Assembly (NCBI GenBank): GCA_031262885.1 | Contig: JAISGV010000002.1 | Location: 1-64,000 of the forward strand | DNA: 64,000 nt | DNA from: Endomicrobium sp. | GTDB lineage: Bacteria; Elusimicrobiota; Endomicrobiia; Endomicrobiales; Endomicrobiaceae | Direction of reading: 5' to 3' | Shown: positions 7,550 through 23,053 of the stretch, in pieces | Position numbering within the stretch: the stretch's first letter is position 1 | Layout of the letters: the number at the start of each line of letters is the position of its first letter | Notes under the pieces: generated by a model | What the model saw: the letters and a program-made list of their open reading frames with translations, nothing else | Database searches by the model: none | What the model was told of the DNA's origin: nothing | Made by a program: the position numbers and the translations under genes

Positions 7550-8131
7550 CTAAAATTTATACTCAGAATTTTTAAATAATCTTTTTATGTTGTCCTTATG
7601 TTTTAAAATTATAAAAACACAAACTAATATAGCTAACAATACTAGTTTAATATTATAATTCATTAACCATAAAATTATAGGTAAACTAATAGATGCAATT
7701 ATAGAAGCTAATGAAACATATCTAAAAATAATAAATATAATTATAAATATTAGTACGGATACTACTGTAGGAATAAAAGTTAAAACAATAAATACACCTA
7801 GAGTTGTCGCAACTCCTTTACCTCCATTAAAATTAATAAAAATTGAATACATATGTCCTAATATAACAAATATTGTAACTAGACTTATAAAAATTAAAGA
7901 ACTATTTATAAACCTTGCAAAATAAATAGCTATAACACCTTTCGAAACGTCTAAAATTAAAGTTAAAATTCCAGAATAAATTCCAGAAGTTCTAATAACA
8001 TTAGTGGTTCCAACATTACCAGAATTAACATTACGAATATCAACGTTTTTTATTAATTTAGTAATTATATATGCAAAAGGAATCGCTCCTAGCAAATAAG
8101 ATAAGATAATATAAATTATTTTATTTACCAT
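7550..8131 (-). CDS. plsY: Acyl-phosphate:glycerol-3-phosphate acyltransferase
   Basis: 193 residues, almost entirely hydrophobic with about five membrane helices. PlsY signatures present are YLLGAIPFAYIITK, then VNSGNVGTTNVIRTSG (the family's GSGNxGaTN block) and FNGGKGVATTLG. It transfers acyl from acyl-phosphate to glycerol-3-phosphate, the first step of phospholipid synthesis, in the inner membrane. Its start overlaps the end of der by 11 bp, indicating coupling. Confidence 0.95.
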   Translation of the reverse strand: MVNKIIYIILSYLLGAIPFAYIITKLIKNVDIRNVNSGNVGTTNVIRTSGIYSGILTLILDVSKGVIAIYFARFINSSLIFISLVTIFVILGHMYSIFINFNGGKGVATTLGVFIVLTFIPTVVSVLIFIIIFIIFRYVSLASIIASISLPIILWLMNYNIKLVLLAILVCVFIILKHKDNIKRLFKNSEYKF

Positions 8132-9410
8132 AATATCTCTTAAATTTTAAAATTATAGGAGTATTGTAAAATTTAAATGTATATCTGATTGAATTTTCTA
8201 AAAATCTTTTATAAGAAAAATGAATTAATTTTACATCATTCACAAAGAAAATAAAAATTGGAGGTTTAGTAGTTTTTTGAATACATGATATAATCTTTAA
8301 AAATTTACCATTTTTATGATAAGGATTTTTAGATATAAAATCAGTCATAGCTATATTTAATTCTTTTTGTGATAGCTTTCTAGAATATTGTAAAAAAGCA
8401 TTATCGGCTTCCATAAATATTTTTCGTAGTCCATACTTAGTTTTTGAAGATATAAATATCATCTTAATCCAATTTATGAATTTCAGTTTATTATTTATCT
8501 GTTTTTTAAAATCATTAGCAACATCTTTTTTTTTAATAATTAAATCCCATTTATTAATAGCAAGAATTACAGGTTTGATTTTATATAATAACTCTATTAT
8601 TTTAACATCAGTCTCTGATATATGATATTTACTAGCATCTATAATTAATATAGCTATATCTGAATCTTTGATAGCATGGATCGTACTTATAATTGATAAA
8701 TACTTTATTTTATTTTTTACCTTTTTCTTACCGATTAAACCAGCTGTATCTATTAATTTGTAAGTTTTTTTATTATTACAAGCTAAAACCTCAATAGCAT
8801 CTCTAGTAGTATCTGGAATATTACTTACTTTACAATATGGTGACGATAATATTGCATTTATGCAAGATGATTTTCCTACATTAGTTTGTCCTACAAACAC
8901 AATTTTTAAAAAAGGTTTAACATTTGTAATTTTATCATGAATATTATTTATTATTTTATCAAGTAAAGTATTTATATTTTTACCATGTTCAGCAGATATA
9001 AAAACAATATCTTTAAAACCTAATGAATAAAATTCATAATTTTTAAATTTATCTTCTTGTTTATCAGTTTTATTAATAACTAAAATTATTTTTTTATTAA
9101 AAATCTTTCTTATTTGTTTAACAATTTTAAGTTCAATATAACTAATTTCATTTTTAGCATCCATTACTAATAATAATAAATCAAATTCTTTAATAAATGA
9201 TGTTAAATTATTTATTGTGATATCACTAATATCAATTAAACCTGCTGTATCTACTATTGTAAAATTTTTATCTTTCCATAATACATTATGCTCAATTCTA
9301 TCTATTGTAGTTCCAGAAGTTTTATGAACAATAATTTTTCTTTCCCCAATAATTCTATTAAACAGGGTAGATTTGCCTACATTAGTTTTTCCTATTATTC
9401 CTACTTTCAC
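8121..9410 (-). CDS. der: Ribosome-associated GTPase Der (EngA)
   Basis: 429 residues with two tandem GTPase domains, which is unique to Der. Walker A of the first is GKTNVGKST at 7-15 and of the second is GQTNVGKSS near residue 175. NKTD and NKWD give base specificity, and DTAGLI occurs twice. A C-terminal KH-like domain ends the protein. It acts in 50S subunit maturation. It is first in a minus-strand unit with plsY, the HU-like gene and the MerR gene. Confidence 0.96.
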   Translation of the reverse strand: MKVGIIGKTNVGKSTLFNRIIGERKIIVHKTSGTTIDRIEHNVLWKDKNFTIVDTAGLIDISDITINNLTSFIKEFDLLLLVMDAKNEISYIELKIVKQIRKIFNKKIILVINKTDKQEDKFKNYEFYSLGFKDIVFISAEHGKNINTLLDKIINNIHDKITNVKPFLKIVFVGQTNVGKSSCINAILSSPYCKVSNIPDTTRDAIEVLACNNKKTYKLIDTAGLIGKKKVKNKIKYLSIISTIHAIKDSDIAILIIDASKYHISETDVKIIELLYKIKPVILAINKWDLIIKKKDVANDFKKQINNKLKFINWIKMIFISSKTKYGLRKIFMEADNAFLQYSRKLSQKELNIAMTDFISKNPYHKNGKFLKIISCIQKTTKPPIFIFFVNDVKLIHFSYKRFLENSIRYTFKFYNTPIILKFKRYYGK

Positions 9411-9509: not shown

Positions 9510-11822
9510 ATGAAAAACCTTAAAAACAAGTTTTCTGCAATAATACTATCAGCAGGATTAGGTACTAGAATGAATTCTAATTTGCCTAAAGTTATGCATA
9601 AATTATCTGGAAAACCATTATTAGGTTGGATTTTAGATTCTGTTATTACATTGGATCCAGAATATATAGTTTTAGTAATAGGAAAACATCATAAGTACCA
9701 ATTAATAAAAGAATATGCACTTAGTAAAAAGAGCAATATTAAAATTGTATACCAAGAAACACAATTAGGTTCTGCGCATGCCGTTTTACAAGCAAAAAAA
9801 ATATTTAAGGAATATAAAAACGATATTTTAATTTTAAGTGCAGATGTTCCACTAATTACAACAAAAACTCTAATGCAATTAGTACACAATAATGTTACAA
9901 CTAATTCTTCCGTTACAGTTCTGGCTGCAAAAATTAAAAATCCATATGGTTATGGAAGAATTATAAAAAAAAATGGATTCTTAGAAAAAATAACGGAAGA
10001 AAATGAGGCTTTATCTTATGAAAAAAAAATCAAAACAATAAATTCCGGAATTTATTGTTTTGATAAAAGTTTATGGCAATATATTTCAAAGATACAATGC
10101 AATAATACAAAAAAAGAATATTATTTAACTGATTTAATCAGTATATTAAGATTAGAAAATAAAAGGGTTTCTCTTATTACATTAAAAAATTCTGACGAAA
10201 TTAAAGGAATAAATAATAGAACTGAACTTCTAGAAGCCGAAAATATTCTGAAAAAGAAAAAAATTAATGAATTATTAAATAATGGTGTTACTATATTAGA
10301 TAGCAACAATAATTATATATCTTATGATGCTAAAATAGGTTTAGATACTATTATTTATCCAAATAATTTTATAGATAGTGGAGTTTCAATAGGTAAAAAT
10401 TGTATACTGTACAACAGTTATATATCCAAATCCAAGATTGGAGATAATTGTACAATATTACAAACTTATATAGAAAATGCTATTTTAAAAAAAAATGTTA
10501 AAATTGGACCTTTTTCTCACATAAGGTATGGCTCTGTTTTAAATGAATATACAAGAATAGGAAATTTTTCAGAAATAAAAAACTCTATAATAAATGAAAA
10601 ATCTAAAATTAATCATCTGTCTTACATAGGAGATTCCGAAATAGGTAATAAAGTCAATATAGGTGCAGGAGTAATAACATGCAATTATGATGGTGTTAGA
10701 AAATATAGAACAATTATAGGATCTATGTCTTTTATCGGTTCAAACGTTAATCTTGTTGCTCCAGTAAAGATTGGAGAAAAAGTAACTGTAGCAGCAGGTT
10801 CAACCATAACAGATGATGTTAATTCTGAAAAATTAGTAATAGCTAGAAGTAAACAAAATGAAATAAACTATTCAAAAAGAGGTTTTATGAATTTTAAAAT
10901 TTTATCTGGAAATGCAAATACTAACCTAGCAAACCAAATTGCTAAAAATTTAAAAACAAAATTAAGCGAAGCTAAAATAGGAAGATTTAGTGATGGTGAA
11001 ATACAAGTAAAAATAGTAGACAATGTTAGGGGTGCAGATTGTTACGTTGTTCAACCAACTTGTTTTCCAGTTAATGATAACTTAATGGAACTATTAATTA
11101 TTACAGATGCTTTAAAAAGAGCCTCTGCTAAAAGAATAACCGCAATAATTCCTTATTTTGGATATGGTAGACAAGATAGAAAATCAGAACCAAGAGTACC
11201 TATTACAGCAAGGCTTGTTGCAAATCTTATAGCAATTTCAGGAATTACAAGAGTAATAACAATGGACTTACACGCTGGTCAAATTCAAGGTTTTTTTGAT
11301 ATACCTGTAGATCATTTACATGGGAAATATGTTCTATTGAGATATTTCAAAGAAAAAAATCTTGATAATTTAGTTGTGGTATCCCCAGATGTTGGAGGAG
11401 CAGAAAGAGCTAGATCTTTTGCTAAAAGTCTTAATTCTGAACTTGTAATAATTGATAAAAGAAGACCTTTTCCAAATGAAGCAACAATAATGAATGTAAT
11501 AGGAGAAGTTAACGGAAAAAATTGTGTAATTTTCGATGATTTAATTGATACTGCAGGAACTTTAACTAAAGTAGCTAATACAATAAATAAAAAAGGTGCC
11601 ACTAGAATTTTTGCTGCAGCAACCCATGGAATTTTATCTGGAAATGCAAAACAAAAAATTCAAGATTCTTGTATAGAAAAATTAGTTATAACAGATTCAG
11701 TTCCTTTATCTAGTAATAATGGGCCAACAAATAAAATAAAAATACTTAGTATAGCTCCTATATTAGCAGAAGCTATAACCAGAATTTTAAAAAATAAATC
11801 AATAAGTATATTGTTTTCATAA
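9510..11822 (+). CDS. glmU-prs: In-frame fusion: bifunctional GlmU + ribose-phosphate pyrophosphokinase
   Basis: 770 residues. Residues 1-459 are a full GlmU: uridylyltransferase with LSAGLGTRMNSNLPKVMHK, then a left-handed beta-helix acetyltransferase with the catalytic-His segment INHLSYIGDSEIG and GAGVITCNYDGV. It makes UDP-GlcNAc for peptidoglycan and LPS. Residues 460-770 are a full PRPP synthetase: RFSDGEIQVKI, DLHAGQIQGFF, SPDVGGAERA and the PRPP loop DDLIDTAGTL. No stop separates them. An ATG at 10887 opens the Prs part and is preceded by AGAGG four bases away, so internal initiation could also give free Prs. In many bacteria glmU, prs, rplY and pth are separate adjacent genes. Confidence 0.93.
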   Translation: MKNLKNKFSAIILSAGLGTRMNSNLPKVMHKLSGKPLLGWILDSVITLDPEYIVLVIGKHHKYQLIKEYALSKKSNIKIVYQETQLGSAHAVLQAKKIFKEYKNDILILSADVPLITTKTLMQLVHNNVTTNSSVTVLAAKIKNPYGYGRIIKKNGFLEKITEENEALSYEKKIKTINSGIYCFDKSLWQYISKIQCNNTKKEYYLTDLISILRLENKRVSLITLKNSDEIKGINNRTELLEAENILKKKKINELLNNGVTILDSNNNYISYDAKIGLDTIIYPNNFIDSGVSIGKNCILYNSYISKSKIGDNCTILQTYIENAILKKNVKIGPFSHIRYGSVLNEYTRIGNFSEIKNSIINEKSKINHLSYIGDSEIGNKVNIGAGVITCNYDGVRKYRTIIGSMSFIGSNVNLVAPVKIGEKVTVAAGSTITDDVNSEKLVIARSKQNEINYSKRGFMNFKILSGNANTNLANQIAKNLKTKLSEAKIGRFSDGEIQVKIVDNVRGADCYVVQPTCFPVNDNLMELLIITDALKRASAKRITAIIPYFGYGRQDRKSEPRVPITARLVANLIAISGITRVITMDLHAGQIQGFFDIPVDHLHGKYVLLRYFKEKNLDNLVVVSPDVGGAERARSFAKSLNSELVIIDKRRPFPNEATIMNVIGEVNGKNCVIFDDLIDTAGTLTKVANTINKKGATRIFAAATHGILSGNAKQKIQDSCIEKLVITDSVPLSSNNGPTNKIKILSIAPILAEAITRILKNKSISILFS

Positions 11823-11853: not shown

Positions 11854-12522
11854 ATGGATAAAATAGTTTTAAACGTAGAACATAGACTAATAGGAACAAA
11901 AGGATATCTTAATTCTTTAAGAAAAAATGGTAAAATTCCAGCAATACTTTATGGTAAAAATATTAAATCTACACCAGTATTTGTTTATTTGAAAGAATTC
12001 AACTCCGTATTTAAAGAAAATGACGATAATACAATATTAAATTTAAATCTTTCAGCAAAAGAAAATAAACAAGTTATAGTCAGAGACATTCAAAAAGATG
12101 TAATAACTCAAAAAATAATACATATAGACTTTCAAGTGATCTCTTTGGATGATAAAATAGAAATGATGGTTCCTATACATATAGAAGGAATAGCTAAAGG
12201 AGTTAAGGATTTTGGCGGAGTAATGGAATTTATTATAAGAGAAATTAAAGTAAAGTCGTTATTGAAATACATTCCAAAAAGAATAAATATAAATGTAAGT
12301 TCTTTAAAAATAGGAGAAGGGATAAAAGTTATAGATTTACCAAAGATAGAAAATGTAGAGTATATTCATGACAAATCATCTCTTATTGTTCATGTTATAA
12401 ATGTTATTAAAGAGGATGTAAAAAATGAAGAACAAGAAAATAGCGCTATGCAACAACCAGAAATAATAAATAAAGGTAAAAAAGATAAAAACAACGAGAA
12501 AACTTCAGAAGAAAAAAAATGA
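11854..12522 (+). CDS. rplY: 50S ribosomal protein L25/general stress protein Ctc
   Basis: 222 residues, the long CTC form. An N-terminal L25 domain that binds 5S rRNA (RLIGTKGYLNSLRKNGKIPA, then a VIVRDIQKDVI-type strand) is followed by the C-terminal TL5/CTC beta domain (MVPIHIEGIAKGVKDFGGVM). The tail is charged and low in complexity (Lys/Glu/Asn rich). It lies between glmU-prs and pth, the standard order, and overlaps pth by 4 bp (ATGA), so translation is coupled. Confidence 0.94.
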   Translation: MDKIVLNVEHRLIGTKGYLNSLRKNGKIPAILYGKNIKSTPVFVYLKEFNSVFKENDDNTILNLNLSAKENKQVIVRDIQKDVITQKIIHIDFQVISLDDKIEMMVPIHIEGIAKGVKDFGGVMEFIIREIKVKSLLKYIPKRININVSSLKIGEGIKVIDLPKIENVEYIHDKSSLIVHVINVIKEDVKNEEQENSAMQQPEIINKGKKDKNNEKTSEEKK

Positions 12523-13088
12523 TAGAAAAAAAAATATATGAAAAAATTAAACTTTTTGTTGGTTTAGGAAATTTTAAAGATTGTTTCAAAAAAACAAGAC
12601 ATAATTTTGGATTTATTGCAATTGATGAAATTGCTAAAGTTAAAAATATAAATTTTACTAATTGGAAAAATATTGCTTATGTCACATCTTACACAAGCAA
12701 TGGTATAAAAAAATGGTTACTTAAACCAAAAACATTTATGAATAATTCTGGCTATGCTGTAAAATTCTTTATCGATTATTATAAAATAAAACCAGAAGAA
12801 ATCATTGTTCTATATGATGATGTATCCATACCTTTTGGTAAATATAAATTAAAAACAAAAATAAAACATAAAACCAATAGTTTTGGCAGACATAATGGTA
12901 TAATGTCGTTAATTAAAAATATACATAGTCATTCCTTTTTGAGAATGAAATTAGGAATAGGCCCTCTTCCAAAAGATTTTGAATTAGCTAATTTCGTATT
13001 ATCAAAATTTTCAGAAAATGAGAATCGCCAATTAATTCTTATAAGAAAAATAATTATTGATATTTTTAATAAAATCAATACAATATAA
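12519..13088 (+). CDS. pth: Peptidyl-tRNA hydrolase
   Basis: 189 residues. Family residues are present: GLGN near the N-terminus, the catalytic His in KTRHNFGF, MNNSGYAV, LYDDVSIPFG with the key Asp, and the Asn in RHNGIMSLI. It releases peptides from prematurely dropped peptidyl-tRNA so the tRNA is recycled. The start overlaps the rplY stop (ATGA). The usual GG pair before the conserved RHNG is partly replaced (NSFGRHNG); the catalytic set is intact. Confidence 0.95.
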   Translation: MIEKKIYEKIKLFVGLGNFKDCFKKTRHNFGFIAIDEIAKVKNINFTNWKNIAYVTSYTSNGIKKWLLKPKTFMNNSGYAVKFFIDYYKIKPEEIIVLYDDVSIPFGKYKLKTKIKHKTNSFGRHNGIMSLIKNIHSHSFLRMKLGIGPLPKDFELANFVLSKFSENENRQLILIRKIIIDIFNKINTI

Positions 13089-20584: not shown

Positions 20585-23053
20585 TTAATTTCTATGAATA
20601 TTAGCTATTGCGACAACTTTGTCTCCAACATCCAACCTTACTAATCTTACACCTTGGGTTATTCTTCCTATAATAGGTATATTGTTTGTTTTTAATCTAA
20701 TCATAACACCATTTTTAGTAATTAACATAATTTCCTCATTACCATTCGTCTTTCTTATACTAACAATTTTTCCATTTCTTTTAGTTGTTTGCATATTTAT
20801 AATACCGCTTCCGCCTCTTTTTTGTATGCGATATTTATTTATCATAGTTCTTTTGCCATATCCGTTTTCTGATACTGATAAAAACGTGTCAAACGCTGAT
20901 AAAACTTCCATACCTATGACTTCATCATTATCTTTGAGTAAAATACCTTTTACACCAATTCCTGAACGTTTTATTACGCGCAAATCTTTATCATTAAATC
21001 TAATCGCCATTCCATTTTTACTAGCTATTAAAATACTAAAATTGTTATCAACTATTTTGACTGCCGTTAATACATCACCATTTTTAAGTTTAATAGCATT
21101 AACTCCATTTTTTCTGGGTTTAGAAAAATCTTTAAGAATAACTTGTTTTATTATTCCATTCTTAGTACACATTATTAAATGTTTACCTTCTATATCACTG
21201 TGCTTAAAGGATTTAATCGGTATTGCTGCTGTTATTTTTTCTTTTTTATTCTTTAAATTTAGAAAATTCATTATAGCTTTTCCTTTAGAGATTCTAGATC
21301 CTATAGGTATATCATAAGTTTTTATCCAATATAATTTACCATTAGTAGTAAAAAATAACATATATGAATGAGTATTTGTTATAAACAAATTTTCAATGAA
21401 ATCTTCAGCTTTGGTACTCATCGCAGTTACACCATGTCCTCCCCTATTTTGAGCTCTATAAGTACTTATTGGTATACGCTTAATATAACCTGAATGAGAC
21501 ATTGTTATTACAACTTCTTCATCTTGAATTAAATCTTCTAAATTAAAATTTATTTCTGAAGATTTAATTTGTGTTCTTCTTCTATCACCATATTTTTTTT
21601 TAATTTCCACAATTTCACTTTTTATTATAGATAAAATTTCCTTAGGATTTTCTAATATAGTATTCAAATTTTTAATAAGTTCTATCAAAATCATATATTC
21701 ATTATTAATTTCTTGTCTTTTTAAATTAGTTAAATGTCTAATTTTCATTTCAAGAATAGCTGAAGTTTGCAGATCTGTTAAATGAAATTTTAATATTAAA
21801 TTTTTATTAGCATCAATCTCACTTTTAGAAATTTTTATTATATTTATAACAACGTCTATATTATCTATAGCTACTTTTAAACCTTCCAAAATATGCGCTC
21901 TTGTTTCAGCTTTTTGCAATTCATATTTTGTTCTTCTTATAATAATACTTTTTCTATGTTCAATATGATGAAATAACATTTCTTTAATGTTTACAATTTT
22001 AGGCTTGTTATTTATAAGAGCTAACATTATAACACCAAAAGAAGTTTGCATTTGAGTTCGTTTATATAGTTGATTTAATACAATATTTGCATCTGTTTCT
22101 TTTTTTATCTCGATAACTATTCTTGTTCCATTACGATCAGATTCATCTCTTAAACCTGAAATACCTTCAATTTTTTTTTCTTTAGATAAATTTATGATAG
22201 AAGCAATTAAATTAGACTTATTAACTTGATAAGGAATTTCTGTAACTATAATTATTTCTTTAGAATTATTTATTGTTTCCATTTTAACTTTAGCCCTTAT
22301 TTTCACAGAACCTCTACCAGTTTCCATATAGTTAGTAATACCTTTTTTCCCATAAATTATAGCACCTGTTGGAAAATCCGGACCTTTAATATATTTCATT
22401 ATTTGTGAAATTGATAAATTTTCTTCAAAATCTATAAAACCTAATAAAGCATCACAAATCTCTGATACGTTATGTGGGGGAATGTTAGTTGCCATTCCTA
22501 CAGCTATACCAGAAGAACCATTAATTAAAAGAGTTGGCAACCTGGTAGGTAATATTGACGGTTCTTTTAATGAACCATCATAATTCGAAATAAAATCAAC
22601 AGTATCTTTGTCCAAATCAATAAGCATTTCATCTGTTATTGAACACATTTTTACTTCAGTATATCTCATCGCTGCTGCTGAATCTCCGTCTATACTTCCA
22701 AAGTTCCCTTGTCCATTAATAATGGGATATCGTAAAGAAAAATCTTGAACCATTCTAACCATAGCTTCATATACAGCAGAATCTCCATGAGGGTGATATT
22801 TCCCTAATACATCGCCTACAACTCTTGCTGATTTTTTATATGAAGTATTATGTTTAAGTCCCATTTCTTTCATTGCATACAAAATTTTTCTATGAACCGG
22901 TTTTAATCCATCTCGTATATCAGGTAAGGCTCTACCTATAATAACACTCATAGCATAATCAATATAAGATTCTTTCATCTCAATTTCAATATCACGTGAT
23001 AAAATTTTATCAACTTTTGTGTTTATATTTTTTTTATCTTTTACTTTTTTCAT
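20585..23053 (-). CDS. gyrA: DNA gyrase subunit A
   Basis: 822 residues. Breakage-reunion domain: [20 protein letters not shown], then AMRYTEVKM with the catalytic tyrosine. Coiled-coil tower and six-bladed C-terminal DNA-wrapping domain follow. The GyrA-box, usually QRRGGRG, is here QNRGGHG (near residue 533). A second similar QKRGGSG lies in a later blade. The enzyme supercoils DNA together with GyrB, encoded 46 bp upstream. A weakened box could reduce wrapping, but overall length and domains are normal. Confidence 0.97.

Follow-up and report, generated by a model that had tools for sequence, protein, structure and literature searches.

Results

The window, meaning the whole stretch of DNA analysed (64,000 nucleotides), carries on its plus strand a fused glmU-prs reading frame at 9510–11822, identified by ORF calling and profile matches, which runs for 770 codons from an ATG to a TAA with no internal stop. 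Residues 1–450 (9510–10859, plus strand) form the GlmU part, an N-terminal uridylyltransferase followed by a C-terminal left-handed beta-helix acetyltransferase, as delimited by profiles and AF2; the Prs part, a class I PRPP synthetase, occupies 10887–11822 on the same strand and was placed by profiles and by the conserved prs start. Residues 9–454 match NCBIfam GlmU equivalogs over their full length (NF010934, 509 bits, cut-off 450; TIGR01173, 503, cut-off 367), and residues 461–770 likewise match PRPP synthetase models (NF002320, 476 bits, cut-off 297; TIGR01251, 395, cut-off 113). The GlmU half contains both the NTP-transferase and the hexapeptide domain, together with the uridylyltransferase motifs GTRMxSxxPK and QLGSAHA, which we take to be active-site motifs; R339, K357, Y372, N383, N392, K398, S411 and R446, the acetyltransferase residues, are invariant across the GlmU parts of the assembly that carries the window (G000) and of two related genomes, G018 and G051. 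Both enzymes are complete within the one frame. The preliminary description had read the locus in just this way, as a 770-residue frame in which the glmU stop is gone and two whole enzymes meet at residues 459/460, and the profile boundaries and the ATG at residue 460 bear it out.

Compared with the known bifunctional UDP-GlcNAc diphosphorylase/GlcN-1-P N-acetyltransferase, the GlmU half is likewise full-length, with both domains present and the acetyltransferase residues kept; known enzymes end at a stop, whereas that of G000 continues through a linker into Prs. The Prs half is a full-length class I ribose-phosphate pyrophosphokinase, 50–54% identical to solved bacterial enzymes, with the conserved start and Shine-Dalgarno sequence of its family, and it differs in its in-frame position behind GlmU. 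The fused frame holds the sole match to the Prs N-terminal domain and the one GlmU-scale match in the G000 assembly (443,994 bases, three contigs, 76% complete).

Downstream on the plus strand lie rplY (bL25/Ctc; 11854–12522), which is a separate gene, and pth (peptidyl-tRNA hydrolase; 12519–13088), which overlaps rplY by 4 bases; upstream, on the minus strand, are plsY (7550–8131) and der (GTPase EngA; 8121–9410). This order, plsY-der on the minus strand and then glmU-prs-rplY-pth-metF on the plus strand, is common to G000, G018 and G051. The fuller relative G057 does not have der beside glmU, its der-plsY pair lying ~0.8 Mb away from glmU-prs in contig coordinates, and the placement of plsY-der beside glmU-prs in the three fused genomes is a derived gene order. 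As had been noted from the outset, glmU-prs-rplY-pth occur elsewhere as separate neighbours: the run in relatives has the same order and direction as in G000, often with glmU and prs in the same frame and one or more stops between them, and differs in that the stop has been lost in the G000/G018/G051 clade only.

The GlmU tail and linker, residues 447–459 (SKQNEINYSKRGF; 10848–10886, plus strand), were defined by alignment and by AF2 confidence below 50 at residues 443–458. Within them, comparison of junctions revealed a Shine-Dalgarno-like prs sequence, AAAGAGG, at 10876–10882 on the plus strand; its AGAGG (10878–10882) ends four bases upstream of the ATG at 10887, which encodes residue 460. 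This ATG is the conserved prs start, and initiation there would yield a free Prs of 311 residues, so that the internal start proposed in the preliminary description is in place and plausible. The junction reads AAAAAGAGGTTTTATG in G000, AAAGAGGTAATAATG in G018 and AAAGAGGAAATAATG in G051, and AAAGAGG followed by 4–5 nucleotides and ATG is found in all three fused frames. The heptamer stands in a different codon phase in G000 than in the other two genomes, so conservation lies in the nucleotide signal and not in a peptide. AGAGG, AGGGG or a similar sequence closely precedes the prs start in most relatives. Of the 1,996 internal in-frame ATGs in the 444 kb assembly, only 3, the junction site among them, have an AGAGG upstream at a spacing of 4–6. 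Within the AAAGAGG of G018 and G051, glutamate is encoded by GAG, a codon that accounts for 9.7% of glutamate codons in G000.

Shine-Dalgarno signals are used sparingly in G000, where a 5-mer precedes the first ATG in 25 of 309 ORFs of 200 or more amino acids as against 1% of internal ATGs; exact 16S 3'-end words, looked for in G000 as a check on the anti-Shine-Dalgarno, were not found. Since AAAGAGG is retained and AGAGG is rare at this spacing before internal ATGs, these sequence data suggest that free Prs is likely made by internal initiation at 10887.

The segment that joins the two enzymes differs in length among the fused genomes. G018 and G051 have frames of 783 codons, with 25 codons from the GlmU IAR to the prs Met, at which 12 of 25 residues are identical; G000 has 13 codons over the same interval. 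The usual GlmU tail (KQ.EI.) leads straight into the prs Shine-Dalgarno sequence, and no frameshift is needed to join the frames; in G000 the spacer is gone as well.

A search for the same architecture, as the preliminary description had advised, recovered the fusion in G018 and G051. The stop-free form thus occurs in three species with mutual identities of 61–72%, and a base missed at the junction, which had been raised as a concern, is ruled out by their three stop-free frames. A glmU stop is present in 33 of the 36 genus junctions read, the other three being G000, G018 and G051, and in seven outgroup junctions. A maximum-likelihood tree built from the two enzyme parts, GlmU and Prs, with the linker left out, places the three fused genomes in one clade (support 100/99.6) with one change of state. 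As they form one clade and share their gene order, we conclude that the glmU stop was lost once and that the fusion was inherited through divergence to 61–72% identity. The preliminary description had set stop-separated junctions in relatives against the fusion; such junctions do prevail in the genus, and they do not refute it, because the fused three are one clade with one stop loss.

Among the matches listed for 341 phylum genomes, we found no further stop-free full-length match besides these three. In many phylum genomes glmU and prs share a frame but are separated by at least one stop, and stops were present in each of five additional loci that we examined. Eight other suspected fusions (G001, G041, G049, G050, G275, G298, G304 and G312) were set aside when reading of their junctions showed stops in each. 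Outside the phylum, 12 of 12 loci from Bacillota, Atribacterota and Chloroflexota with both genes on one strand had stops; these and the phylum genomes are a sample rather than a census of all bacteria, and the G000, G018 and G051 assemblies are incomplete (63–78%). No PDB chain spans both GlmU and Prs, our literature search on a GlmU-Prs fusion returned nothing relevant, and the words fusion, fused and GlmU do not occur in a 2026 pan-domain survey of PRPS (PMC13252144). Judged by the sequence and distribution of the frame, two ordinary essential enzymes have truly become fused, and the fusion is inherited and confined to this clade: a new architecture of two well-known enzymes, with no new mechanism.

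Between G018 and G051 the synonymous distance is ~1 (NG86). Over the linker, dN/dS is ~0.5 (NG86, 25 codons only) and frame 0 is conserved no better than frame 2, so that NG86 and the frame comparison reveal no clear protein-level constraint on these 25 codons. Simulated under a simple neutral model, a 25-codon linker of this composition stays open in ~8–13% of lineages at distances of 0.5–1.0 and a 13-codon linker in ~27–34%; this model is rough, and the segment includes some GlmU tail and Shine-Dalgarno sequence, which would be constrained anyway. A linker still open at a synonymous distance of ~1 is a weak hint that the two enzymes are kept joined.

Set against 1.04 Mb of G057, the whole of G000 and the largest G018 contig yielded a single case in which two intact, unrelated proteins have been joined, namely GlmU-Prs. 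A wave of fusions was rejected as an account of these genomes: nearly all other cases in which one frame corresponds to two G057 ORFs proved to be ordinary single proteins that are broken in G057 (FabF, a CCA-adding enzyme, an AMP-binding enzyme, LpxA, LpxB, an ABC transporter, an FtsX/MacB-like protein and an M23 peptidase), and the one that remains is a short ORF without a Pfam match. At 20619–21317 of the window there is a 232-residue frame with no Pfam match, to which a pair of short frames corresponds in each of G057 and G018. Genes fragmented in the larger G057 and intact in the smaller G000 or G018 lie, for example, at 510864–512424, 112405–113827 and 797313–798439 of G057:C1, and include those for the AMP-binding enzyme, the CCA-adding enzyme and FabF.

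G000 has a GC content of 25%, and the genomes of its genus measure 0.2–1.4 Mb within a family and order of mostly larger genomes. With this range of sizes, this low GC and these relatives, the genomes fit Endomicrobiellum (PMC11257099), the termite-flagellate endosymbionts of Elusimicrobiota, which retain peptidoglycan synthesis, and the fused clade is probably made up of tiny-genome symbionts of termite-gut protists. G000 retains five Mur-ligase-type genes, PurF and PyrE, so that both products of the fused enzymes have users. Several related assemblies differ in other ways. G002, G008 and G011 each have five Mur-ligase-type genes but nothing that matches glmU or prs at E<=1e-30, which may reflect incomplete assembly or real loss; three close relatives, G013, G010 and G049 (L014, L015 and L041), have a glmU-prs spacer of ~470–580 bases, possibly a decayed insert; and the G012 assembly, for which 7% contamination is flagged, has another glmU-prs fragment that differs from the first (G012:C66 and G012:C82), probably through a mixture of strains.

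Discussion

We consider it probable that the locus is an inherited fusion with two-way translation, giving both GlmU-linker-Prs and free Prs, which began as a tolerated accident of compaction. We infer dual translation, co-assembly and enzyme activity along the following lines. In the common ancestor of this small, genome-reduced clade, loss of the glmU stop in a compacting genome would have brought glmU into frame with prs. Ribosomes that begin at the glmU start would produce a single polypeptide that combines PRPP synthetase with uridylyltransferase and acetyltransferase, three activities in all, through a flexible linker, and those that begin at the retained Shine-Dalgarno sequence and ATG 10887 would make free Prs. 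Each half would work like its parent family, and fused and free Prs chains could co-assemble. Overall, the interpretation offered in the preliminary description is partly supported: its account of the joined frame and of a plausible internal start is borne out, and its coupling of cell-wall sugar to nucleotide supply and its unusual assembly are hypotheses.

A stricter reading of the same explanation is that the joined chain is made, the tether has no role, and the fusion survives since a drifting endosymbiont, in which free Prs supplies the hexamers, suffers little from it. To us the chances of this are evenly balanced, and our confidence in the two readings overlaps because the one is a narrower form of the other. 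The fusion arose once, in a clade with strongly reduced genomes of 25% GC, and this fits a neutral fusion, as do the kept internal prs start, a short linker without clear constraint, and a pair of enzymes without a common substrate or product; it fits less well that a 25-codon linker would be open with a probability of ~0.08–0.13 per lineage at ~1 substitution per synonymous site, on a rough model, and that no other fusion of intact genes turned up in the sequence compared (G000 and the largest G018 contig against G057). If the tether were instead selected, the fusion might co-localise or balance PRPP and UDP-GlcNAc synthesis by way of PRPP to UMP and UTP, the uridine donor of GlmU. Three diverged species retain the fusion, and with PyrE and PurF retained PRPP can lead to UTP; that route takes several steps, however, which makes a direct channel impossible, and the AF2 model, with its unstructured linker and a pTM of 0.49, predicts no fixed arrangement of the two halves, so that we regard a selected tether as unlikely.

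The fused chain might also be made and then cut by a protease within its linker, leaving separate enzymes in the cell; the predicted disorder of the linker (AF2) would allow this, but cleavage explains nothing otherwise unexplained, and we give it little credence. An artefact, with the stop absent only because the junction was misassembled or lost a base in sequencing, might be suspected in a metagenome-type assembly with A/T homopolymers close to the junction. The stop-free frames of G000, G018 and G051, however, come from three distinct species of one clade and have different linkers, and the GlmU tail (KQ.EI.) directly meets the prs Shine-Dalgarno sequence with no frameshift required; we therefore reject an artefact as extremely improbable.

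GlmU is a trimer (C3) and class I Prs is a D3 hexamer. These symmetries are not incompatible, because C3 and D3 share a three-fold axis, and the fusion need not break either assembly, because two trimers could cap the three-fold axis of one hexamer. The AF2 model, which is of a monomer, shows both halves with confidence and residues 443–458 with pLDDT below 50; its overall pTM of 0.49 leaves the relative placement of the halves undefined. The Prs half superposes on solved E. coli and B. subtilis PRS chains with TM scores of 0.91–0.95 (target-normalised). For the GlmU half, too, there are matches among solved chains of GlmU. A selected, stable particle, in which two GlmU trimers share the three-fold axis of one Prs hexamer, with all chains fused or mixed with free Prs in an amount set by the internal start, seems to us improbable; free Prs would dilute any obligatory stoichiometry. 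Were it real, this GlmU-Prs particle would physically connect the PRPP pathway with that of peptidoglycan precursors, a connection not previously described.

The locus is a clear-cut example of how two essential enzymes with no relation to each other became a single chain under extreme genome reduction; sister species still show separate genes, and the fused ones keep the old internal start. It opens to experiment how an enzyme that forms homohexamers copes with fusion to a trimer, and whether internal initiation buffers such fusions.

The Prs parts also vary at one position of the PRPP-binding loop: DTAGT is DTANT in G018 and G051 (L009 and L036), and in other genus members the variable position is E in G046, T in G009 and K in G022.
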